This document shows positions 5,552 to 35,737 of a stretch of 35,866 nt of DNA, one piece after another. Both the position numbers and the translations under genes were made by a program. This DNA is from Gammaproteobacteria bacterium (lineage in GTDB: Bacteria; Pseudomonadota; Gammaproteobacteria; Ga0077554; Ga007554). Within the stretch, counting starts at the first letter, position 1, and each line of letters starts with the position of its first letter. Location: contig SBBG01000147.1 in assembly GCA_005240065.1 (NCBI GenBank), positions 1-35,866 of the forward strand, given 5' to 3'. The notes below the pieces were generated by a model. That model saw nothing but the letters and a program-made list of their open reading frames with translations, did no database searches and was not told the origin of the DNA.

Positions 5552-7384
5552 CTAGCCAGAACTCCGGGCACCGGCGGACTTGAGCAGTTTCACGATTTCC
5601 GCATAGCCGTTGCTCTCCGCCTCCTTGAGCGCGTTCATACCATTGCTGTTCATGGCGTTCACATCGGCGCCGGCGCGCACCAGCATTTGCACGATATCGG
5701 CATGACCGGCGCGCGTGGCGTAGATCAATGCCGTGGTGCCGGAGACACCGAATACATTGCCGCCTGAACCCGCTTCGGCTCCTTCGACGGCGTTCACATC
5801 GGCCTTGCTTTTCAGCAGCAATTCCACCAGCCTGGCATTGCCGGCGGTCGATGCGACCATCAGCGGCGTGAGACCCTCGACCGATCGGATATTGGGATCG
5901 GCCTTGTGATCGAGCAACGCCTGGGTAACGCCGAGATGACCGCGTTCCACCGCCCAGTAAAGAGCTGTCTTGCCAATGAAACCGCGCGTATCCGGCAAGG
6001 CGCCGGCTTCCAGCAAGACGCGGGCGACCTCGGCGTGGCCGAGCTGCGCGGCCCTCATCAACACGGTGTTGCGGCCGACCGCGCCCAGTGCGACGGTGAA
6101 CGAGCTGGCGCGGTTTTCCTTCTCCACCGCGTTGGGATCAGCATTCTTGTTCAGCAGCAGGCGCATGATACCGGGATTGCCTTGCTCGGCGGCGACAAAC
6201 AATGCAGTTTCGTTGCGGCGGTTGGCGCGGTTGATGTCGGCTCCCTGTTCGAGCAGATAACGCACGGTCTCGGCATGGCCACGGCGCACGGCGACGATCA
6301 ACGCCGTATCGCCTCGCGCGGCGGCTTCCACCACCTCTTCGTCACCCAGTGGTACGCGGACAGCCGACATGGCCCATTCACGCAGCCCGTCGGGAATGGC
6401 ATTGACCTTGGCGCCGTTCTCGATCAGTGACTTGACGACATCGGTATAGCCGCCCAACGACGCCGCCAGCAAGGGCGTCAAGCCCAGGGTGTTCTTAATG
6501 TTGGCCCGCGCGCCGGCCTCGAACAACTGGCGCACTTTCGGCGCATCGCCATTCTTCGATGCCTTGATCAGCGCATCGTCCAGACTCAACCCGGCATAGA
6601 CCGCTTCCCTGCGCGCACCGGCCTGCTTCAGGCTATGCGCGATATCGGCATACTGATTGCGCTCGGCGATATTCAGCGGCGTATGGCCGTGGGTGTTGCT
6701 GGCATTGGGATCGGCACCCTTGGCGAGCAGCGCATCGGTGATGGCCAGCCATGGCCCGTCGGCCGCCAGCAGGCCATGTTTCGCGGCGTACATCAGCGGC
6801 GTGTAACCGCTGTCGCCCGCCGAAATAGGCAGGGTATTCGCTACATTGGGGTTCGCCCCCGCCGCCAGCAGCGTCTCCGTCAGGCGCAGGTTGCCGTATT
6901 GCACCGCCGGAAAGAGCGCCGTTTCTCCCCGATTGTTTCTGGCATTCACGTCAGCCTTGGCCTTGAGCAGAGTTTTGGTGATCTCGATATTACCTTTTGC
7001 CACGGCGCCCATCAGCGCGGTATTACCCGAGCTGTTGACGGCATTCACATCCGCGCCTGCTTTCAGCAGCAGGTCGGTCATTTCCCATTGGCCGGCGGTA
7101 GCGGCGGCGATCAGCGCGGTGGTACCGGCGCTATCCTTGGCATTCGCGTCCACACCGCGATCGAGCATGTAGCGCACGACACTTTCATGACCATAGGTCG
7201 CGGCCAGCACCAAGCGATCGGGACTGAGAGCATCGCCGGGAATGGCTGCAGGCGGAGAGGCAGTGGGTACCGGCTCCTCATCCGCCATCGCAGGCATGAT
7301 GCCCGCCCAAAGAATCGCGCCCATACCACATAACAGCAGGCGGTTTCCCCTCCACCGCGACAGCGCCACTTTATTGTGATGCAT
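5552..7384 (-). CDS. Secreted ankyrin-repeat protein
   Basis: This ~610-residue protein has an N-terminal export signal (arginine-rich start, hydrophobic run LLLCGMGAILWAG, probable cleavage after AMA). Roughly a dozen or more ankyrin repeats run almost to the C-terminus. The repeats are textbook: 'GTTALIAAATAGQWEMTDLL', 'GADVNAVNSSGNTALM' and similar, spaced about 33 residues. One longer loop interrupts the array around residues 330–355, and shorter insertions occur elsewhere. Ankyrin arrays bind proteins; the partner is not evident. I prefer the ATG at 7384, with GGAGGG 8 bases upstream; an in-frame GTG lies two codons earlier at 7390. It heads the unit with the membrane protein and the periplasmic FKBP. 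Confidence 0.9.
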   Translation of the reverse strand: MHHNKVALSRWRGNRLLLCGMGAILWAGIMPAMADEEPVPTASPPAAIPGDALSPDRLVLAATYGHESVVRYMLDRGVDANAKDSAGTTALIAAATAGQWEMTDLLLKAGADVNAVNSSGNTALMGAVAKGNIEITKTLLKAKADVNARNNRGETALFPAVQYGNLRLTETLLAAGANPNVANTLPISAGDSGYTPLMYAAKHGLLAADGPWLAITDALLAKGADPNASNTHGHTPLNIAERNQYADIAHSLKQAGARREAVYAGLSLDDALIKASKNGDAPKVRQLFEAGARANIKNTLGLTPLLAASLGGYTDVVKSLIENGAKVNAIPDGLREWAMSAVRVPLGDEEVVEAAARGDTALIVAVRRGHAETVRYLLEQGADINRANRRNETALFVAAEQGNPGIMRLLLNKNADPNAVEKENRASSFTVALGAVGRNTVLMRAAQLGHAEVARVLLEAGALPDTRGFIGKTALYWAVERGHLGVTQALLDHKADPNIRSVEGLTPLMVASTAGNARLVELLLKSKADVNAVEGAEAGSGGNVFGVSGTTALIYATRAGHADIVQMLVRAGADVNAMNSNGMNALKEAESNGYAEIVKLLKSAGARSSG

Positions 7385-7437
7385 GGCCACTACCCTCCCA
7401 CCCTCTTTGAGAATGTAATTGTTTTTGATTGACTGCT

Positions 7438-10502: not shown

Positions 10503-12407
10503 ATGGATAAAAACAGCCACCAGGCGCGCCGTTTCGCCGGTTTGTGCTTGTCCAGCGCCATTCTGCTCATACTCGGCGGCTGCGCCACGCAGCAAGGTAA
10601 ACTCCCCCTCGCCGACGCCCAGCCGCAAAAGAAACCGCTCGCTCAAACCACGCCTTTGATAGCTGTGACCGCGATCGATCCCGCCGTCGTCCGGCCTGCG
10701 GCGGACCCGGCTACTTCCGAAAAGGCTCTCTCCGAGGTGGAATTGGCCGATCTCTGGGGGCAGATAGTTACACAGTCCACCGAAATCGAACCCGCACCGG
10801 TCACCCTCACCCCTCTGGCCGAAACACCGCTATCACCTGCGGAACGGGCTGCGCGGATACTGGAAAAAACCAAAACCGGGGCGGCTCTGCCCAGGAAAAA
10901 ACCGGCGGCTGATGCCTCCACCCCGGCCCTCACGACCATCACGGCAAAATCCAGCATACCGGACAACCACGCCCCGGCCGACATCTGGGACCGCATCCGC
11001 AACCGCTTCAGCTTGCCCGACCGCGACCACCCGCGCGTGGAATCCAGCAAAAACTGGTACGCCTCGCGTCAACAATACCTCGACCGCACCATCGAGCGCG
11101 CCACACCTTATCTGCATTACATCGTGGAAGAAATCGAGCGGCGCAATATGCCCTCCGAACTGGCGCTGCTACCCATCGTCGAAAGCGCCTTTCAGCCAAT
11201 GGCCAATTCACACGCCAAAGCCGCCGGCATCTGGCAATTCATCCCGTCAACCGCCAGAAATTTCGGCCTGAAGCAAAACTGGTGGTATGACGGCCGGCGC
11301 GACATTCATGCCTCGACGCGCGCTGCGCTCGATTATCTGCAAAAGCTGAACGTCATGTTCGACGGCGACTGGCTGCTGGCGCTGGCCGCCTATAACGCCG
11401 GCGAAGGCGCCGTGATGCGTGCCGTCAACGCCAACGCCGCAGCAGGCAAACCCACCGACTTCTGGTCGCTGAAACTGCCTGTGGAAACCCAGGGCTATGT
11501 CCCTTGGCTGCTGGCGATCACCGACATCGTCGCCGCGCCGGAAAGCTATGGCATCGCCCTCAAATCTGTGCCGGACAAACCCTATCTGACGCCGATCAAC
11601 ACCGGCAAGCAGATTGATCTGGCGCTCGCCGCCGAATTGGCCAACCTGTCTGTCGAGGAGCTTTACAAGCTCAACCCCGGCTTCAACCGTTGGGCCACCG
11701 ATCCCGACGGACCGCACCATCTGCTGCTGCCTATCGACAAGGTGGACACCTTCAAGGCGAAACTCGACTCTCTGCCGGAGGAAAAACGTGTCGCCTGGAC
11801 CCGCCATCGCGTCGAGAAGAAACAATCCCTCGGCTACATCGCCAGCATCTATGGCACCACCGCCGACCTGCTGCGCCAGATCAATAGACTGACCAGCAAT
11901 GCCGTGCGCAAAGGCCAGGACTTGCTCATTCCGGTCGCCACCGCCAAGGATAGTAATGACAACAGCGTCTCGCGTCTTGCGCAAAATACCCCGCCGCAGG
12001 CCAATACCTCCTACGTCAGCGAATCTGATGCCGATACTGCAGAAAAGAAGCTGACCCATACCGTGCACCGCAGCGACACCCTGTGGAAAATCGCCCGCAA
12101 ATACGGCGTCAACCCCCGGCAACTGGCGGCTTGGAATAACCTCACCCCGAAAGCCAGGATCATCGCTGGTCAGCGGCTGGTGATAAAGACTACCTCGCCC
12201 CGCCCCACCCGTCTCACCCTCAGCCGCGCCTCGCAAATCGAGAAGGCCACCATACGCCGCATCAACTATAAGATACGTCCTGGCGACACCTTGACCCGCA
12301 TCGCCGAACGGTTTGACGTGAGCGTGAACGAACTACGCAAGTGGAATTCCGCCACCAAAGTAAAGCATTTGAAACCGGGGCAGAAATTGATGTTGGTGCT
12401 GAATTAA
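10503..12407 (+). CDS. mltD: Membrane-bound lytic murein transglycosylase D
   Basis: This 634-residue lipoprotein cleaves the MurNAc–GlcNAc bond of peptidoglycan to leave 1,6-anhydro ends. The signal ends in lipobox ILGGC. A proline-rich linker precedes the SLT (lysozyme-like) domain, with catalytic Glu227 in 'LLPIVESAFQPMANSHAKAAG', then 'GIWQFIPSTAR' and 'LALAAYNAGEGAV'. Three C-terminal LysM modules bind glycan: a divergent one around 438–480, then 'HTVHRSDTLWKIARKYGVN' and 'YKIRPGDTLTRIAERFDVS'. GGAGG sits close before the ATG. Overall length and order are normal for MltD, although LysM number varies between species. Confidence 0.96.
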   Translation: MDKNSHQARRFAGLCLSSAILLILGGCATQQGKLPLADAQPQKKPLAQTTPLIAVTAIDPAVVRPAADPATSEKALSEVELADLWGQIVTQSTEIEPAPVTLTPLAETPLSPAERAARILEKTKTGAALPRKKPAADASTPALTTITAKSSIPDNHAPADIWDRIRNRFSLPDRDHPRVESSKNWYASRQQYLDRTIERATPYLHYIVEEIERRNMPSELALLPIVESAFQPMANSHAKAAGIWQFIPSTARNFGLKQNWWYDGRRDIHASTRAALDYLQKLNVMFDGDWLLALAAYNAGEGAVMRAVNANAAAGKPTDFWSLKLPVETQGYVPWLLAITDIVAAPESYGIALKSVPDKPYLTPINTGKQIDLALAAELANLSVEELYKLNPGFNRWATDPDGPHHLLLPIDKVDTFKAKLDSLPEEKRVAWTRHRVEKKQSLGYIASIYGTTADLLRQINRLTSNAVRKGQDLLIPVATAKDSNDNSVSRLAQNTPPQANTSYVSESDADTAEKKLTHTVHRSDTLWKIARKYGVNPRQLAAWNNLTPKARIIAGQRLVIKTTSPRPTRLTLSRASQIEKATIRRINYKIRPGDTLTRIAERFDVSVNELRKWNSATKVKHLKPGQKLMLVLN

Positions 12408-12444: not shown

Positions 12445-12500
12445 CAATGCGACTATGTCGATGACTTGCGTGTCGAACGCGAAGTCTCGACATAGCATTG
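12445..12500. repeat. Long hairpin downstream of mltD
   Basis: CAATG/CATTG, CTATGTCGA/TCGACATAG and GACTTGCG/CGCGAAGTC (one bulge) stack as an almost continuous 25-bp stem around a 7-base centre. No T-run follows, so a simple intrinsic terminator is not indicated. It may be a REP-type repeat or a 3'-end stabilising structure for the mltD mRNA. Confidence 0.6.
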
Positions 12501-12524
12501 CGGGACCAAATCGGGATTTGCCTT

Positions 12525-12541
12525 TGTCGGTTTCTTTTACA
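12525..12541 (+). promoter_or_regulatory. Upstream activator box 1, TGTCGG-N6-TTACA
   Basis: TGTCGG TTTCTT TTACA. The same pattern recurs 112 bases downstream in the same orientation. Both lie upstream of a sigma-54-type promoter and a PEP-CTERM gene, as expected for an enhancer-binding activator of the PrsR type; that assignment is inference. Confidence 0.55.
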
Positions 12542-12636
12542 TCCTTAAAAAACATCGCAATAGATTGATAAATATTAATTTAATTAAAAATTAACACCGC
12601 TTCCTGCTTTATTTTTGCACAAAACACATACAAAAC

Positions 12637-12653
12637 TGTCGGCAAACTTTACA
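12637..12653 (+). promoter_or_regulatory. Upstream activator box 2, TGTCGG-N6-TTACA
   Basis: TGTCGG CAAACT TTACA, the second copy of the box. It lies about 100 bases before the predicted -24/-12 promoter, a normal distance for a sigma-54 enhancer site. Confidence 0.55.
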
Positions 12654-12738
12654 CATCTAATCAATTCTTGGTCAAAAACCAAGATCAAAACTCACCCATA
12701 GAATATAAGTCAATGTTTTAAAAATAAAAAATATTTTA

Positions 12739-12754
12739 TGGCGCACATTTTGCT
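12739..12754 (+). promoter_or_regulatory. Sigma-54 (RpoN) -24/-12 promoter
   Basis: TGGCGCACATTTTGCT matches the TGGCAC-N5-TTGCW consensus, with the invariant GG (12740–12741) and GC (12752–12753) separated by exactly 10 bases. Transcription would begin near 12765, giving a leader of about 50 bases. The leader contains a GCGGATT-GCAT-AATCCGC hairpin (12766–12783). Confidence 0.65.
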
Positions 12755-12816
12755 ATCAGGCGGGCGCGGATTGCATAATCCGCAATGCGCAACAACAAAC
12801 AGCAAGGAGTGTTCAA

Positions 12817-13596
12817 ATGAAATTTACCAGAAAATCCCTGAACGTCGCGGCATTGATGCTGGCGGCAACAGTGAGCGGTGTCGCATCAGCCGCCCCCATT
12901 CTCTGGGTAGGTGACTCACAAGGCAACTTGGGAACTGTCGACGTCGCTTCCGGCACGGTCAATATCATCGGCAACATGGGCCAGTCGATGACCGACATCG
13001 CCTTCGACCCCAGCGGCAATCTTTACGGCATCACTTTTACCGGCTTGTATTCCATCAACCCGGCCACGGCAGGCACCACGTTCATCGGTAACCTGGGAAC
13101 ATCCGCTAATTCGCTTGTATTCGATTCCGCCGGCACCCTCTACACTGCGAACAGCGCACTGTACAGCGTCAACACCAGCACTGGCCTTGCTACATTGATC
13201 GGCAACGGCGGCGCCGCCTACGGCTCCTCGGGCGATTTGGCGTTCATCAACAATAAGCTGTATTTGAGCAGCAACATTGGCAACGATTCGCTGGTGGAAC
13301 TCAACACCTCGACCGGGGTTGGTACACTGATCGGCAACATCGGCTATTCCGCCGTTTATGGCTTGGCGACCGACAACAACATCAATCTCTATGGTGTCAC
13401 CGGCACGACTGTCATTGGCATCAATACCGCCACTGGCGCGGGAACTACTCTCATCAACTACGGTGGCAAAGGTCTTGTCGATGCTTGGGGCTCCGCTTTC
13501 CGCACCGAAGCCGTTCCGGAACCGGCGACTTTCGCGCTGATGGGCATGGGCTTGGTGGGACTTGGACTGGCCCGCCGCAAAGCCAAGACACAGTAA
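12817..13596 (+). CDS. PEP-CTERM sorted protein with beta-propeller-like repeats
   Basis: The product is a 259-residue exported protein: a Sec signal peptide (MKFTRKSLNVAALMLAATVSG…SAA), about 200 residues of repeating blocks, then a PEP-CTERM tail. Blocks read like 'LGTVDVASGTVNIIGNMG', 'LYSINPATAGTTFIGNLG' and 'LVELNTSTGVGTLIGNIG', suggesting a small beta-propeller. The tail from residue 233 has VPEP, a hydrophobic helix (ATFALMGMGLVGLGLA) and a final RRK cluster, the exosortase recognition pattern. Such proteins are cut by exosortase and linked to exopolysaccharide synthesis or biofilm; no exosortase gene is in the window. AAGGAG lies 8 bases before the ATG. Its own sigma-54-like control region suggests independent regulation. 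Confidence 0.93.
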   Translation: MKFTRKSLNVAALMLAATVSGVASAAPILWVGDSQGNLGTVDVASGTVNIIGNMGQSMTDIAFDPSGNLYGITFTGLYSINPATAGTTFIGNLGTSANSLVFDSAGTLYTANSALYSVNTSTGLATLIGNGGAAYGSSGDLAFINNKLYLSSNIGNDSLVELNTSTGVGTLIGNIGYSAVYGLATDNNINLYGVTGTTVIGINTATGAGTTLINYGGKGLVDAWGSAFRTEAVPEPATFALMGMGLVGLGLARRKAKTQ

Positions 13597-32346: not shown

Positions 32347-32457
32347 CACATCAAATCGCCTGTGTTGAAAACCCGCCTTGGACCCTTTTTGTAATGGTAA
32401 TCAGGCCCCTCACCGCAAACTATCACCCGCTTCCCCGGAGTGTCAACCCGATCTTGA

Positions 32458-33292: not shown

Positions 33293-35692
33293 CTACGTGG
33301 AACGGCGGCGCAACAGCAATACCGCGGGCAACCCGAACAGCGCCAGCGCCAAAGCCCCGAATGCTCCGCCACCGCCGCCAGGCGGGGTGTTGATGACGGT
33401 ATCAGCCTTCACCGAGGTTACTGCGCAAGCACCGCGAACGCAGGCATCGAGCGAACCATTGTTACCGGGAAGATAATCGGACGGCAAACCAACCGTCACA
33501 GCGGCTCTGTTCTCAATCAGTTTATCGACCAGGGAGGGATTAGAGGGCTTGACGACGACAAATACCGTAAAAGTTTCGCCGTTCTTTAGCGTGGCCATCG
33601 TACAAACGAGCTGATTGTTGCTTATCGAGTAGCTGCAATTTCCCGCCGCGCTACCGGTGGCGATCGCCCAGCGGGCAAAATCGACTCCGCCAGGCAAGCG
33701 GTCGGTCAACGTGACCGAACTCGCTTCATTTGGCCCCTTGTTGTTGACAACCAGGGTGTAAGTCAGCTCGGTGTTCAACCCAACGGTATCGAAATTGGCG
33801 GTTTTCAGCACCTCAAGATCGGTTTTGGCGGGCGAGAAATTATCGCTGTCCGCCTCCACCGCGCCGATATCGCAGTCATTGCCGCCTGGACGGCCGAACT
33901 GGCGCTGATCGAAGCCGCTGACACAACTGGCGCCGTCGATAGCCGGACTGAGGGACTGTGGCAGCAGGGTTTTAGGATACGTGTTGTCGGGCAACAGGGT
34001 ATCCACACTGCTGCCCGGCCTGAAGGGTGTCACGCTGGTATTGTCGGCAAGCGGGGCAAGGTTCGGATTGATGTTCTTCAAGTCACTGGATTCCGTGAGA
34101 CCGCAGCTATCGCCGTGCTCCAGATTGTGGCCTCTGGAGGTAATGAAAATAAGGTAGTTCGTATCGCCAGCGCAATTGTTCGTACTAAGAGTGTTATCGC
34201 CGATAATGGTATTCTCGAAGATCGTGCGGTCACCCGCGGCGTTTTGGGTGCGGATGAAAATTTCCTTGCCGGACGGCGCACTGTTGCCGCTCACGGTCGC
34301 ATGGGTGAGCGTGGCGCCCCGATCGTTACTGATGCCGCCGCCGCTCTGCAAAGCCGTGTTGCCGGTGATGGTGCTGTTGACGACAACGAGCCCACCGGGG
34401 CCATTGTTGTTGATACCGCCGCCGGACGCGCCTATCCCGGACGTTGCGGCGTTGTTCCTGCGGATGGTGCTGTATGAGATATCCAGCGAGGATAGATTGA
34501 CGATGCCATTGCCGATATTGCCGTCGACCACGCTCGACGTCAGCCGCACAATACCCGTTACCGTGCCAAGGCGGCTCAAGCCATTGGTATTGTAGATACC
34601 GGCGCCGATACCGGCCTCATTCTGATTGCTGGCGCTGATAGTATCCTGGTTATCGCCGATGATGGTGCGAGTGATCGTGACCACGCCACCGTGGTTGCTT
34701 AACGCCCCGCCACGGCCATAAGGTCCGCTGATGTCCGCGCCGGTGTTGGTGTTTTTGTTCCCCTGCAAGAAAGTGTCGGTGATCGTCAATCGGCCGCTTT
34801 TCTCCTCCAGCCCGCTGGCATTGGCGATGCCGGCGCCGTAGGGATGGCCTTCGTTTTGGCTGATTTCCGTCTTGCTCTTGATGGTCATGTCGCCGTTGGT
34901 AAAAATACCACCGCCGCCGACGAATTCCAGGGCGGGGTTCGGAGCGAAGACCGGCCCGGGAGGATTGATAAGCTTGTTATTGGCTATGCGGCTGTTTCGA
35001 ATCTCCATCCTGGCGTTGTTAGCATTGTAAATACCGCCGCCGCTGTACCATTTGCCGTCAAAACTCGCGTCGACGGCATCATAGCTTTTGGCCGTATTGT
35101 TGATGACCTCGGAGTTTTCCAGCACCACCCAGCCATTGGAATTCCTGATACCGCCGCCATTGGCGTTCTTCGCAAAACCACCCTGAATGGTCACGCCAGT
35201 AATCTTGACCGTGTTTCTGCCGACGAAATGGAATACCCGGTCGATACCGCCGCCGTCGATGATCGTCACCCCCTTGCCCATGCCTGTAATGGTCAGGCAC
35301 GGCACGTTCAAATCGGCGCTGGGGCAGGTGCCGAGAATGTCGAGATCGCCATTGGCAGCATTGTCATCGGTTCCCGGGCGGGTAAGCGTGTAAGTACCGG
35401 GCGCCATCAAATTAATGACGATATCGGTGATGCCCTTGGTGGTGATGAGGGCGTTGGCTTCCTGAATCGCGGCGCGCAGGGTGCAGAAATTGCCGTTCAC
35501 CGCTTTGCATTGGCCATCGCCGGGGTTGAGATCGACATCATCCCGAAAGTCGTTCACTGGGAGGAAGGTCGTTGCCGCCACCTGGGCAGACCCCAACAGA
35601 AAAACGAACGCAGCCAACAGAGCACGGAAGACGAGACCGTCCCCCCGGAGACGGACTGGCTGAAAACCTGAATGTATTATATTTTTTGGCAT
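33293..35692 (-). CDS. Large secreted CSLREA/DUF11 protein with GlyGly-CTERM-like tail
   Basis: This ~799-residue surface protein starts with a signal peptide (FRALLAAFVFLLGSAQVAA). A CSLREA-type domain follows ('DGQCKAVNGNFCTLRAAIQEANAL', cysteines conserved). A long right-handed parallel beta-helix region of choice-of-anchor-Q type comes next ('NNTAKS…GGGIYN', 'STITGNTALQSGGGISND'), then a DUF11 domain ('TDLEVLKTANF…ELTYTLVVNNKGPNEASSVTLTDRLP'). The end is a run of glycines, a hydrophobic helix and RRR, the GlyGly-CTERM pattern cut by rhombosortase. I prefer ATG 35692; a GTG at 35716 is in frame. No neighbour explains its role; cell-surface display is inferred. Confidence 0.88.
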   Translation of the reverse strand: MPKNIIHSGFQPVRLRGDGLVFRALLAAFVFLLGSAQVAATTFLPVNDFRDDVDLNPGDGQCKAVNGNFCTLRAAIQEANALITTKGITDIVINLMAPGTYTLTRPGTDDNAANGDLDILGTCPSADLNVPCLTITGMGKGVTIIDGGGIDRVFHFVGRNTVKITGVTIQGGFAKNANGGGIRNSNGWVVLENSEVINNTAKSYDAVDASFDGKWYSGGGIYNANNARMEIRNSRIANNKLINPPGPVFAPNPALEFVGGGGIFTNGDMTIKSKTEISQNEGHPYGAGIANASGLEEKSGRLTITDTFLQGNKNTNTGADISGPYGRGGALSNHGGVVTITRTIIGDNQDTISASNQNEAGIGAGIYNTNGLSRLGTVTGIVRLTSSVVDGNIGNGIVNLSSLDISYSTIRRNNAATSGIGASGGGINNNGPGGLVVVNSTITGNTALQSGGGISNDRGATLTHATVSGNSAPSGKEIFIRTQNAAGDRTIFENTIIGDNTLSTNNCAGDTNYLIFITSRGHNLEHGDSCGLTESSDLKNINPNLAPLADNTSVTPFRPGSSVDTLLPDNTYPKTLLPQSLSPAIDGASCVSGFDQRQFGRPGGNDCDIGAVEADSDNFSPAKTDLEVLKTANFDTVGLNTELTYTLVVNNKGPNEASSVTLTDRLPGGVDFARWAIATGSAAGNCSYSISNNQLVCTMATLKNGETFTVFVVVKPSNPSLVDKLIENRAAVTVGLPSDYLPGNNGSLDACVRGACAVTSVKADTVINTPPGGGGGAFGALALALFGLPAVLLLRRRST

Positions 35693-35737
35693 AAGCTTGA
35701 TTTCTCGCGCACGCACGCGGCTCGAAGGTCAGCGTAT

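Follow-up and report, generated by a model that had tools for sequence, protein, structure and literature searches.

Which signals control the PEP-CTERM protein gene at positions 12817 to 13596 of contig SBBG01000147.1 (assembly GCA_005240065.1, Gammaproteobacteria bacterium), and how are they arranged with respect to each other? The whole stretch of DNA that was analysed, 35,866 nucleotides (nt) long, is referred to below as the window. The intergenic region ahead of the gene comprises 409 base pairs (bp) and is very probably an enhancer-promoter of the PEP-CTERM/exosortase regulon, dependent on sigma-54, predicted to be bound by the activator PrsR, and working by DNA looping that depends on the face of the helix. 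The following elements were recognised in and next to this region:

12525..12541, + strand: distal PEP-CTERM box (motif 1), TGTCGGTTTCTTTTACA, an exact TGTCGG-N5-TTTACA; predicted site of a PrsR dimer
12637..12653, + strand: proximal PEP-CTERM box (motif 1), TGTCGGCAAACTTTACA, an exact TGTCGG-N5-TTTACA
12659..12671, + strand: weak site resembling that of integration host factor (IHF), AATCAATTCTTGG, 8 of 9 consensus positions; low likelihood
12708..12720, + strand: IHF-like site, AGTCAATGTTTTA, 8 of 9 positions, forward orientation, 31 bp upstream of the -24 TGG
12739..12754, + strand: sigma-54 promoter, TGGCGCACATTTTGCT, with the -24 GG at 12740-41, N10 and the -12 GC at 12752-53
12765, + strand: predicted transcription start, placed about 12 bases past the -12 GC from the standard position of the sigma-54 -12 element
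12804..12809, + strand: ribosome-binding site AAGGAG, read from the sequence
12817..13596, + strand: PEP-CTERM protein gene, 259 amino acids, with an N-terminal signal sequence and the C-terminal VPEPATFALMGMGLVGLGLARRK

Both boxes are copies of one 17-nt motif, of which 0.00025 would be expected by chance in the intergenic region under a dinucleotide model. They occupy a common strand at a distance of 112 bp from start to start, i.e. about 10 turns of 11.1 bp. The start of the second box is 102 bp from the promoter TGG and its end about 85 bases from GG-N10-GC (12740-12753), while the start codon at 12817 follows the promoter end at 12754 by 62 nt. The AT content of 12520-12760 is 70.5 % in comparison to 40.9 % in the window. 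An earlier sequence-only reading of this DNA had described an exact GG-N10-GC promoter upstream of the gene and AT-rich DNA unlike the surroundings, and both were found again. The two boxes in the same orientation, 112 bp apart, which it had also described, are present as well, but their pattern had to be corrected from TGTCGG-N6-TTACA to TGTCGG-N5-TTTACA, as one further T is shared. With its TGT-N11-ACA ends the box would form an imperfect dyad, as expected of a Fis-type activator dimer. The published motif that the sequence-only reading could not confirm is motif 1 together with the sigma-54 motif 2 of Haft et al. 2006 (PMC1569441). A one-mismatch box at window position 11651 was set aside because it lies inside the transglycosylase gene further upstream, and a hairpin in the 5' untranslated region (12766-12790) was dropped, its folding being barely above that of shuffled sequences (z -1.5). 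A long hairpin without a T-run (12445-12500, -29 kcal/mol, z -4.6) separates the transglycosylase gene from the boxes.

The pattern TGTCGG-N6-TTACA has 12 exact matches in the 2.68 Mb of the window's genome and none in the reversed control, in contrast to the background frequency that had been named as the outcome speaking against a regulatory role. Eleven of the 12 boxes are found upstream of six PEP-CTERM genes, each of which is preceded by a box pair on one strand (C7, 113 bp; C46, 112 bp; C88, 133 bp; C95, 99 bp; C104, 189 bp, with one mismatch in the proximal box; C147, 145 bp). All six have a GG-N10-GC promoter 91-116 bp past the start of the proximal box. Direct alignment of four promoters of this genome was uninformative between the motifs since the spacings differ. 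When two mismatches were allowed, 155 matches were obtained versus 127 in the control; the signal is then lost in the background, so only close matches to the box are meaningful.

A gene encoding a PilZ-domain protein (L051, C40 32417-32970) has a TGTCGA box in the intergenic DNA, at 32417, which is followed by a promoter after 115 bp and is likely to be its regulatory box. The twelfth exact box falls within the coding sequence of the same gene (C40:32676-32692); it was considered as a second PilZ site and set aside as probably due to chance. On contig C20 the gene of a secreted Asn/Ser/Asp-rich repeat protein (L031) lies behind a one-mismatch box, which has a promoter 95 bp further on. This protein and its counterpart in another genome (L085, G001 C4) end in ...GISQVAQNNGQNSLIQQNFTIQGNVSP instead of a PEP-CTERM tail, and the Q-x-x-N pattern of this end bears a faint likeness to curli repeats. 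The expectation that the boxes recur at other PEP-CTERM genes and define a regulon was borne out at five further PEP-CTERM genes and one PilZ gene. Some PEP-CTERM genes of the genome are without a box.

The regulators needed for such a switch are encoded in the same genome. On contig C88 the genes for EpsB2, PrsK, PrsR, PrsT and a second PrsT are followed in a row by a PEP-CTERM gene with two boxes. PrsR scored 730 bits (cut-off 502.6) and no other activator passed, the next best reaching 397; PrsK scored 842 bits (cut-off 300), and PrsT too was above its curated cut-off. The genome has one copy of RpoN (522 bits, cut-off 277) and further NtrC-type activators that score below the PrsR cut-off. 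None of the proteins scanned on C88 was an exosortase, and no dedicated search of the genome for it was made. The proposal of sigma-54 control by a PrsK/PrsR-type activator is therefore supported in its testable parts, namely the promoter, the PEP-CTERM domain, the prsK and prsR genes and the recurring boxes.

The spacing itself holds information, the helical phase, that the sequence-only reading overlooked. Quantised distances between box and promoter were first seen in the family of the window's genome. The pattern TGTCGR-N5-TTTACA-N{52,113}-TGG-N9-TGC, searched in two gap ranges in 369 genomes of the class, was present in 66 of them with a gap of 52-82 and in 29 with a gap of 83-113, and the reversed control gave 0 matches in every genome. 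Among the matches listed, 193 distances in 73 genomes were available. Counted from the box start to TGG they cluster at 69-71, 78-82, 90-93, 102-103, 112-115 and 123-125 bp, while the ranges 72-77, 83-86 and 105-110 bp are nearly empty. The best period is about 11.2 bp, with a resultant of 0.67, a Rayleigh p of ~1e-38 and a range of 10.98-11.40 in the genome bootstrap, and 79 % of the distances are at most 2 bp, and 90 % at most a quarter turn, from one helical face. The Rayleigh values assume independent sites, which those of related genomes are not fully, so the figure for one site per genome (n=73, period 11.1 bp, p ~3e-14) is the more cautious one. The 165 sites outside the window's family gave a period of 11.15 bp, and jittered distances reached a resultant of 0.28 at most. 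The comb is not an artefact of the search, since the pattern prefers no offset. The 102 bp of the window is 0.3 bp from a comb peak. This quantisation of the distance from box to promoter at about 11.1 bp is apparently unpublished for the PEP-CTERM/PrsR system, as are the box spacing in whole turns, the IHF-like site and the recurrent PilZ member described below; in the open-access literature no report of helical phasing in PEP-CTERM boxes was found.

The same rule applies to repeated boxes. A second box on the same strand within 400 bp upstream was found at 30 of 36 promoters of the family and at 21 of 106 others, in comparison to 0 reversed-motif matches and 6 opposite-strand boxes in the same DNA. 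Within and outside the family the spacings between boxes peak at whole turns of about 11.1 bp (phase 0.04-0.05 turn). The best period was 11.35 bp in the family (n=31, resultant 0.65) and 11.0 bp outside it (n=21, resultant 0.70, jitter p 0.002), whereas at 10.5 bp the resultant was only 0.33 and 0.07, respectively. In one genome of the set a single PEP-CTERM gene is preceded by three identical boxes, 119 and 107 bp apart (G001 C31:65481-65723).

The promoters aligned on TGG display an AT-rich block with a conserved A/T at -32 to -30. The IHF consensus YAANNNNTTGATW was matched at 8 of 9 positions in 42 of 148 sites versus 13 in shuffled sequences, most often at -31 to -33 or a turn further away, at -42 to -44; related promoters of the window's spacing class also carry such a match near -31. 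IHF may accordingly be a component of these promoters, including that of the window.

These data are consistent with the following course of events. PrsK would act as the kinase, and phosphorylated PrsR, an NtrC-type activator, would occupy both 17-bp boxes as dimers. Lying whole turns apart, the two dimers would point to one face of the helix, and this would help the active PrsR oligomer to assemble. IHF probably bends the AT-rich spacer at about -31 to -43 relative to the -24 element; the spacer would loop PrsR onto the RNA polymerase-sigma-54 complex at 12739-12754, and ATP hydrolysis would open the promoter. The predicted output is induction of a surface protein together with exopolysaccharide. 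The distances would shift in whole turns of about 11.1 bp because a short loop requires the box to face the promoter.

Several observations weigh against this scheme. Binding of PrsR to the box is a prediction in the literature too, and other NtrC-type activators of the genome could share the site. No box was found at two PEP-CTERM genes that were examined (C105 and C16); since at least two PEP-CTERM genes lack it, PrsR is not the sole route. The IHF-like site of the window is degenerate (8 of 9), and the proximal spacing of 102 bp exceeds the class mode of 80. It is unlikely, in our estimate, that the boxes are bound by another NtrC-type activator at a promoter that would still depend on sigma-54. 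Several NtrC-like proteins stay below the cut-off for PrsR and one of them is encoded directly upstream of the PEP-CTERM gene on C7 (C7:6964-8331), but PrsR alone passes that cut-off (730 vs 502.6, next 397), it clusters with a double-boxed PEP-CTERM gene, and the published phylogenetic profile links the box with PrsR, PrsK and PrsT (PMC1569441).

It is highly improbable that transcription of the gene starts at a sigma-70 promoter or reads through from the lytic transglycosylase gene, with the boxes reduced to a minor modulator or a relic. The upstream gene is on the same strand and a sigma-70-like site lies at 12750-12779, but such sites are at chance level (2 seen vs 1.4 expected), the strong hairpin at 12445-12500 (z -4.6) separates the two genes, and GG/GC and box positions kept in phase across genomes are not expected of a relic. 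The phasing itself might have come from shared ancestry or from a periodicity of AT tracts in intergenic DNA and not from a looping constraint, as related genomes share some homologous sites and the spacer is AT-rich. This is very unlikely, since the same comb is obtained with one site per genome (n=73, p ~3e-14) and with the 165 sites outside the family, six different peaks are filled, the resultant of jittered distances is 0.28 vs 0.67, and the spacing between boxes independently gives the same period. A phased PrsR enhancer looping onto a sigma-54 promoter is therefore the reading that we retain.

Of 148 distinct promoters, 66 are followed by a PEP-CTERM gene that a simple rule readily recognises, and several of the genes behind the remaining ones encode VPxPA-type variants of the sorting signal. 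PilZ genes confirmed with Pfam follow the box in the window's own genome and in G003 and G007 of its family, and outside it in G294 and G201, which belong to two other families; boxes in G001, G002, G004 and G005 are followed by very similar sequences. This suggests that the PilZ protein is a recurrent regulon member of non-PEP-CTERM type, linking the regulon to cyclic dimeric guanosine monophosphate (c-di-GMP). A GGDEF gene under the box in the G258 lineage is a second connection of this kind. A search of the open-access literature found no mention of PilZ as part of the PrsR regulon. In several genomes PEP-CTERM boxes also precede genes whose products carry an early Arg-Arg (Tat-like) signal (L139, L161, L182, L157 and L185), and L139 matched no Pfam family. 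Phased boxes were further noted before genes for DUF5658-type membrane proteins (L164, L223, L229), DUF3135-type proteins (L236-L238) and an NtrC-type activator (L160), all of which are possible members of the regulon.

The product of the window's gene terminates in VPEPATFALMGMGLVGLGLARRKAKTQ and its PEP-CTERM domain was recognised by both TIGR02595 (23 bits, cut-off 16) and PF07589 (30.1 bits, cut-off 20.7). The gene is flanked upstream, on the same strand, by that of an MltD-like LysM lytic transglycosylase and downstream, on the opposite strand, by dnaJ. The orthologue search with this protein gave no true orthologue, only a single weak match to the C-terminus in a named genome and partial matches in relatives, and conservation of the promoter of exactly this gene is for this reason not traceable. 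An isolated stretch of 50 amino acids with 56 % identity to the protein, inside a 56-codon open frame in genome G001 (L090, C12:12547-12696), may be a decayed relative. Elsewhere in the window, on the minus strand, there are genes for a large DUF11-containing protein at the window end (33296-35716) and for an ankyrin-repeat protein (5555-7390).

Taken together, it appears reasonably likely that PEP-CTERM boxes across the class obey a strict helical code of about 11.1 bp, from box to promoter and from box to box, which records the helical repeat in vivo and predicts functional boxes, and that the regulon is wired to c-di-GMP via a recurrent PilZ protein, and in one lineage a GGDEF protein, under the same box. 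A prediction made in 2006 is confirmed in a further genome that has nearly the full set of regulators, and a loosely spaced motif pair acquires a spacing rule that can be measured. This rule sharpens genome-wide prediction of PEP-CTERM regulons, with their role in flocculation and biofilm, and makes looping by PrsR testable, while the PilZ protein may connect exopolysaccharide-surface assembly with c-di-GMP. Specialists may not be aware of the helical comb and of the PilZ member.

The site in the window is a new copy of a switch known since 2006. Haft et al. described a motif 1 of 17 nt with TTTACA at its end, in some cases repeated, at 62.8 +/- 10.6 nt (range 32-92) from the sigma-54 motif 2, which was followed by the start codon after 71 +/- 38.5 nt (range 23-221), and found the site in front of 99 of 167 PEP-CTERM genes from proteobacteria; PrsR was predicted as the activator from the phylogenetic profile tying the box to PrsR, PrsK and PrsT (PMC1569441). 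The window agrees in the TTTACA motif, the -24/-12 motif, the single PEP-CTERM gene, the large non-coding region upstream of it (409 bp here) and the presence of PrsK, PrsR and PrsT in the genome, and both of its spacers (about 85 nt, and 62 nt to the start codon) are inside the published ranges. The 2006 study gives a mean spacer only, whereas the window has a longer spacer (about 85 nt), box pairs are usual in the family and the spacing is quantised by the helix. For pepA of Aquincola tertiaricarbonis RN12, dependence on RpoN and a mapped -24/-12 start have been reported (PMC9850573); that promoter was mapped experimentally, whereas the present one was recognised from the DNA, with two exact boxes.

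The closest parallel for the phasing is provided by the LuxO-qrr sigma-54 enhancers of Vibrio, whose loop lengths of about 80 to about 120 bp cluster every ~11 bp in a set of 61 enhancers (PMC4740811). Both systems have an NtrC-type activator, a short loop of ~80-120 bp and a displacement of ~11 bp. In Vibrio, however, the activator and box are different and the sites serve small RNA genes of one genus, whereas the PEP-CTERM sites come from 73 genomes across the class and are in phase between repeated activator sites as well. The effective helical repeat near 11.1 bp is also close to the 11.08 bp per turn fitted in vivo for looping by Lac repressor in wild-type E. coli (PMC1762422), which concerned a repression loop in engineered constructs rather than an evolutionary comb of natural enhancers. 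In view of the precedent in Vibrio, the phasing of PEP-CTERM boxes is a new case of a known principle, seen with another activator and on a far wider scale.
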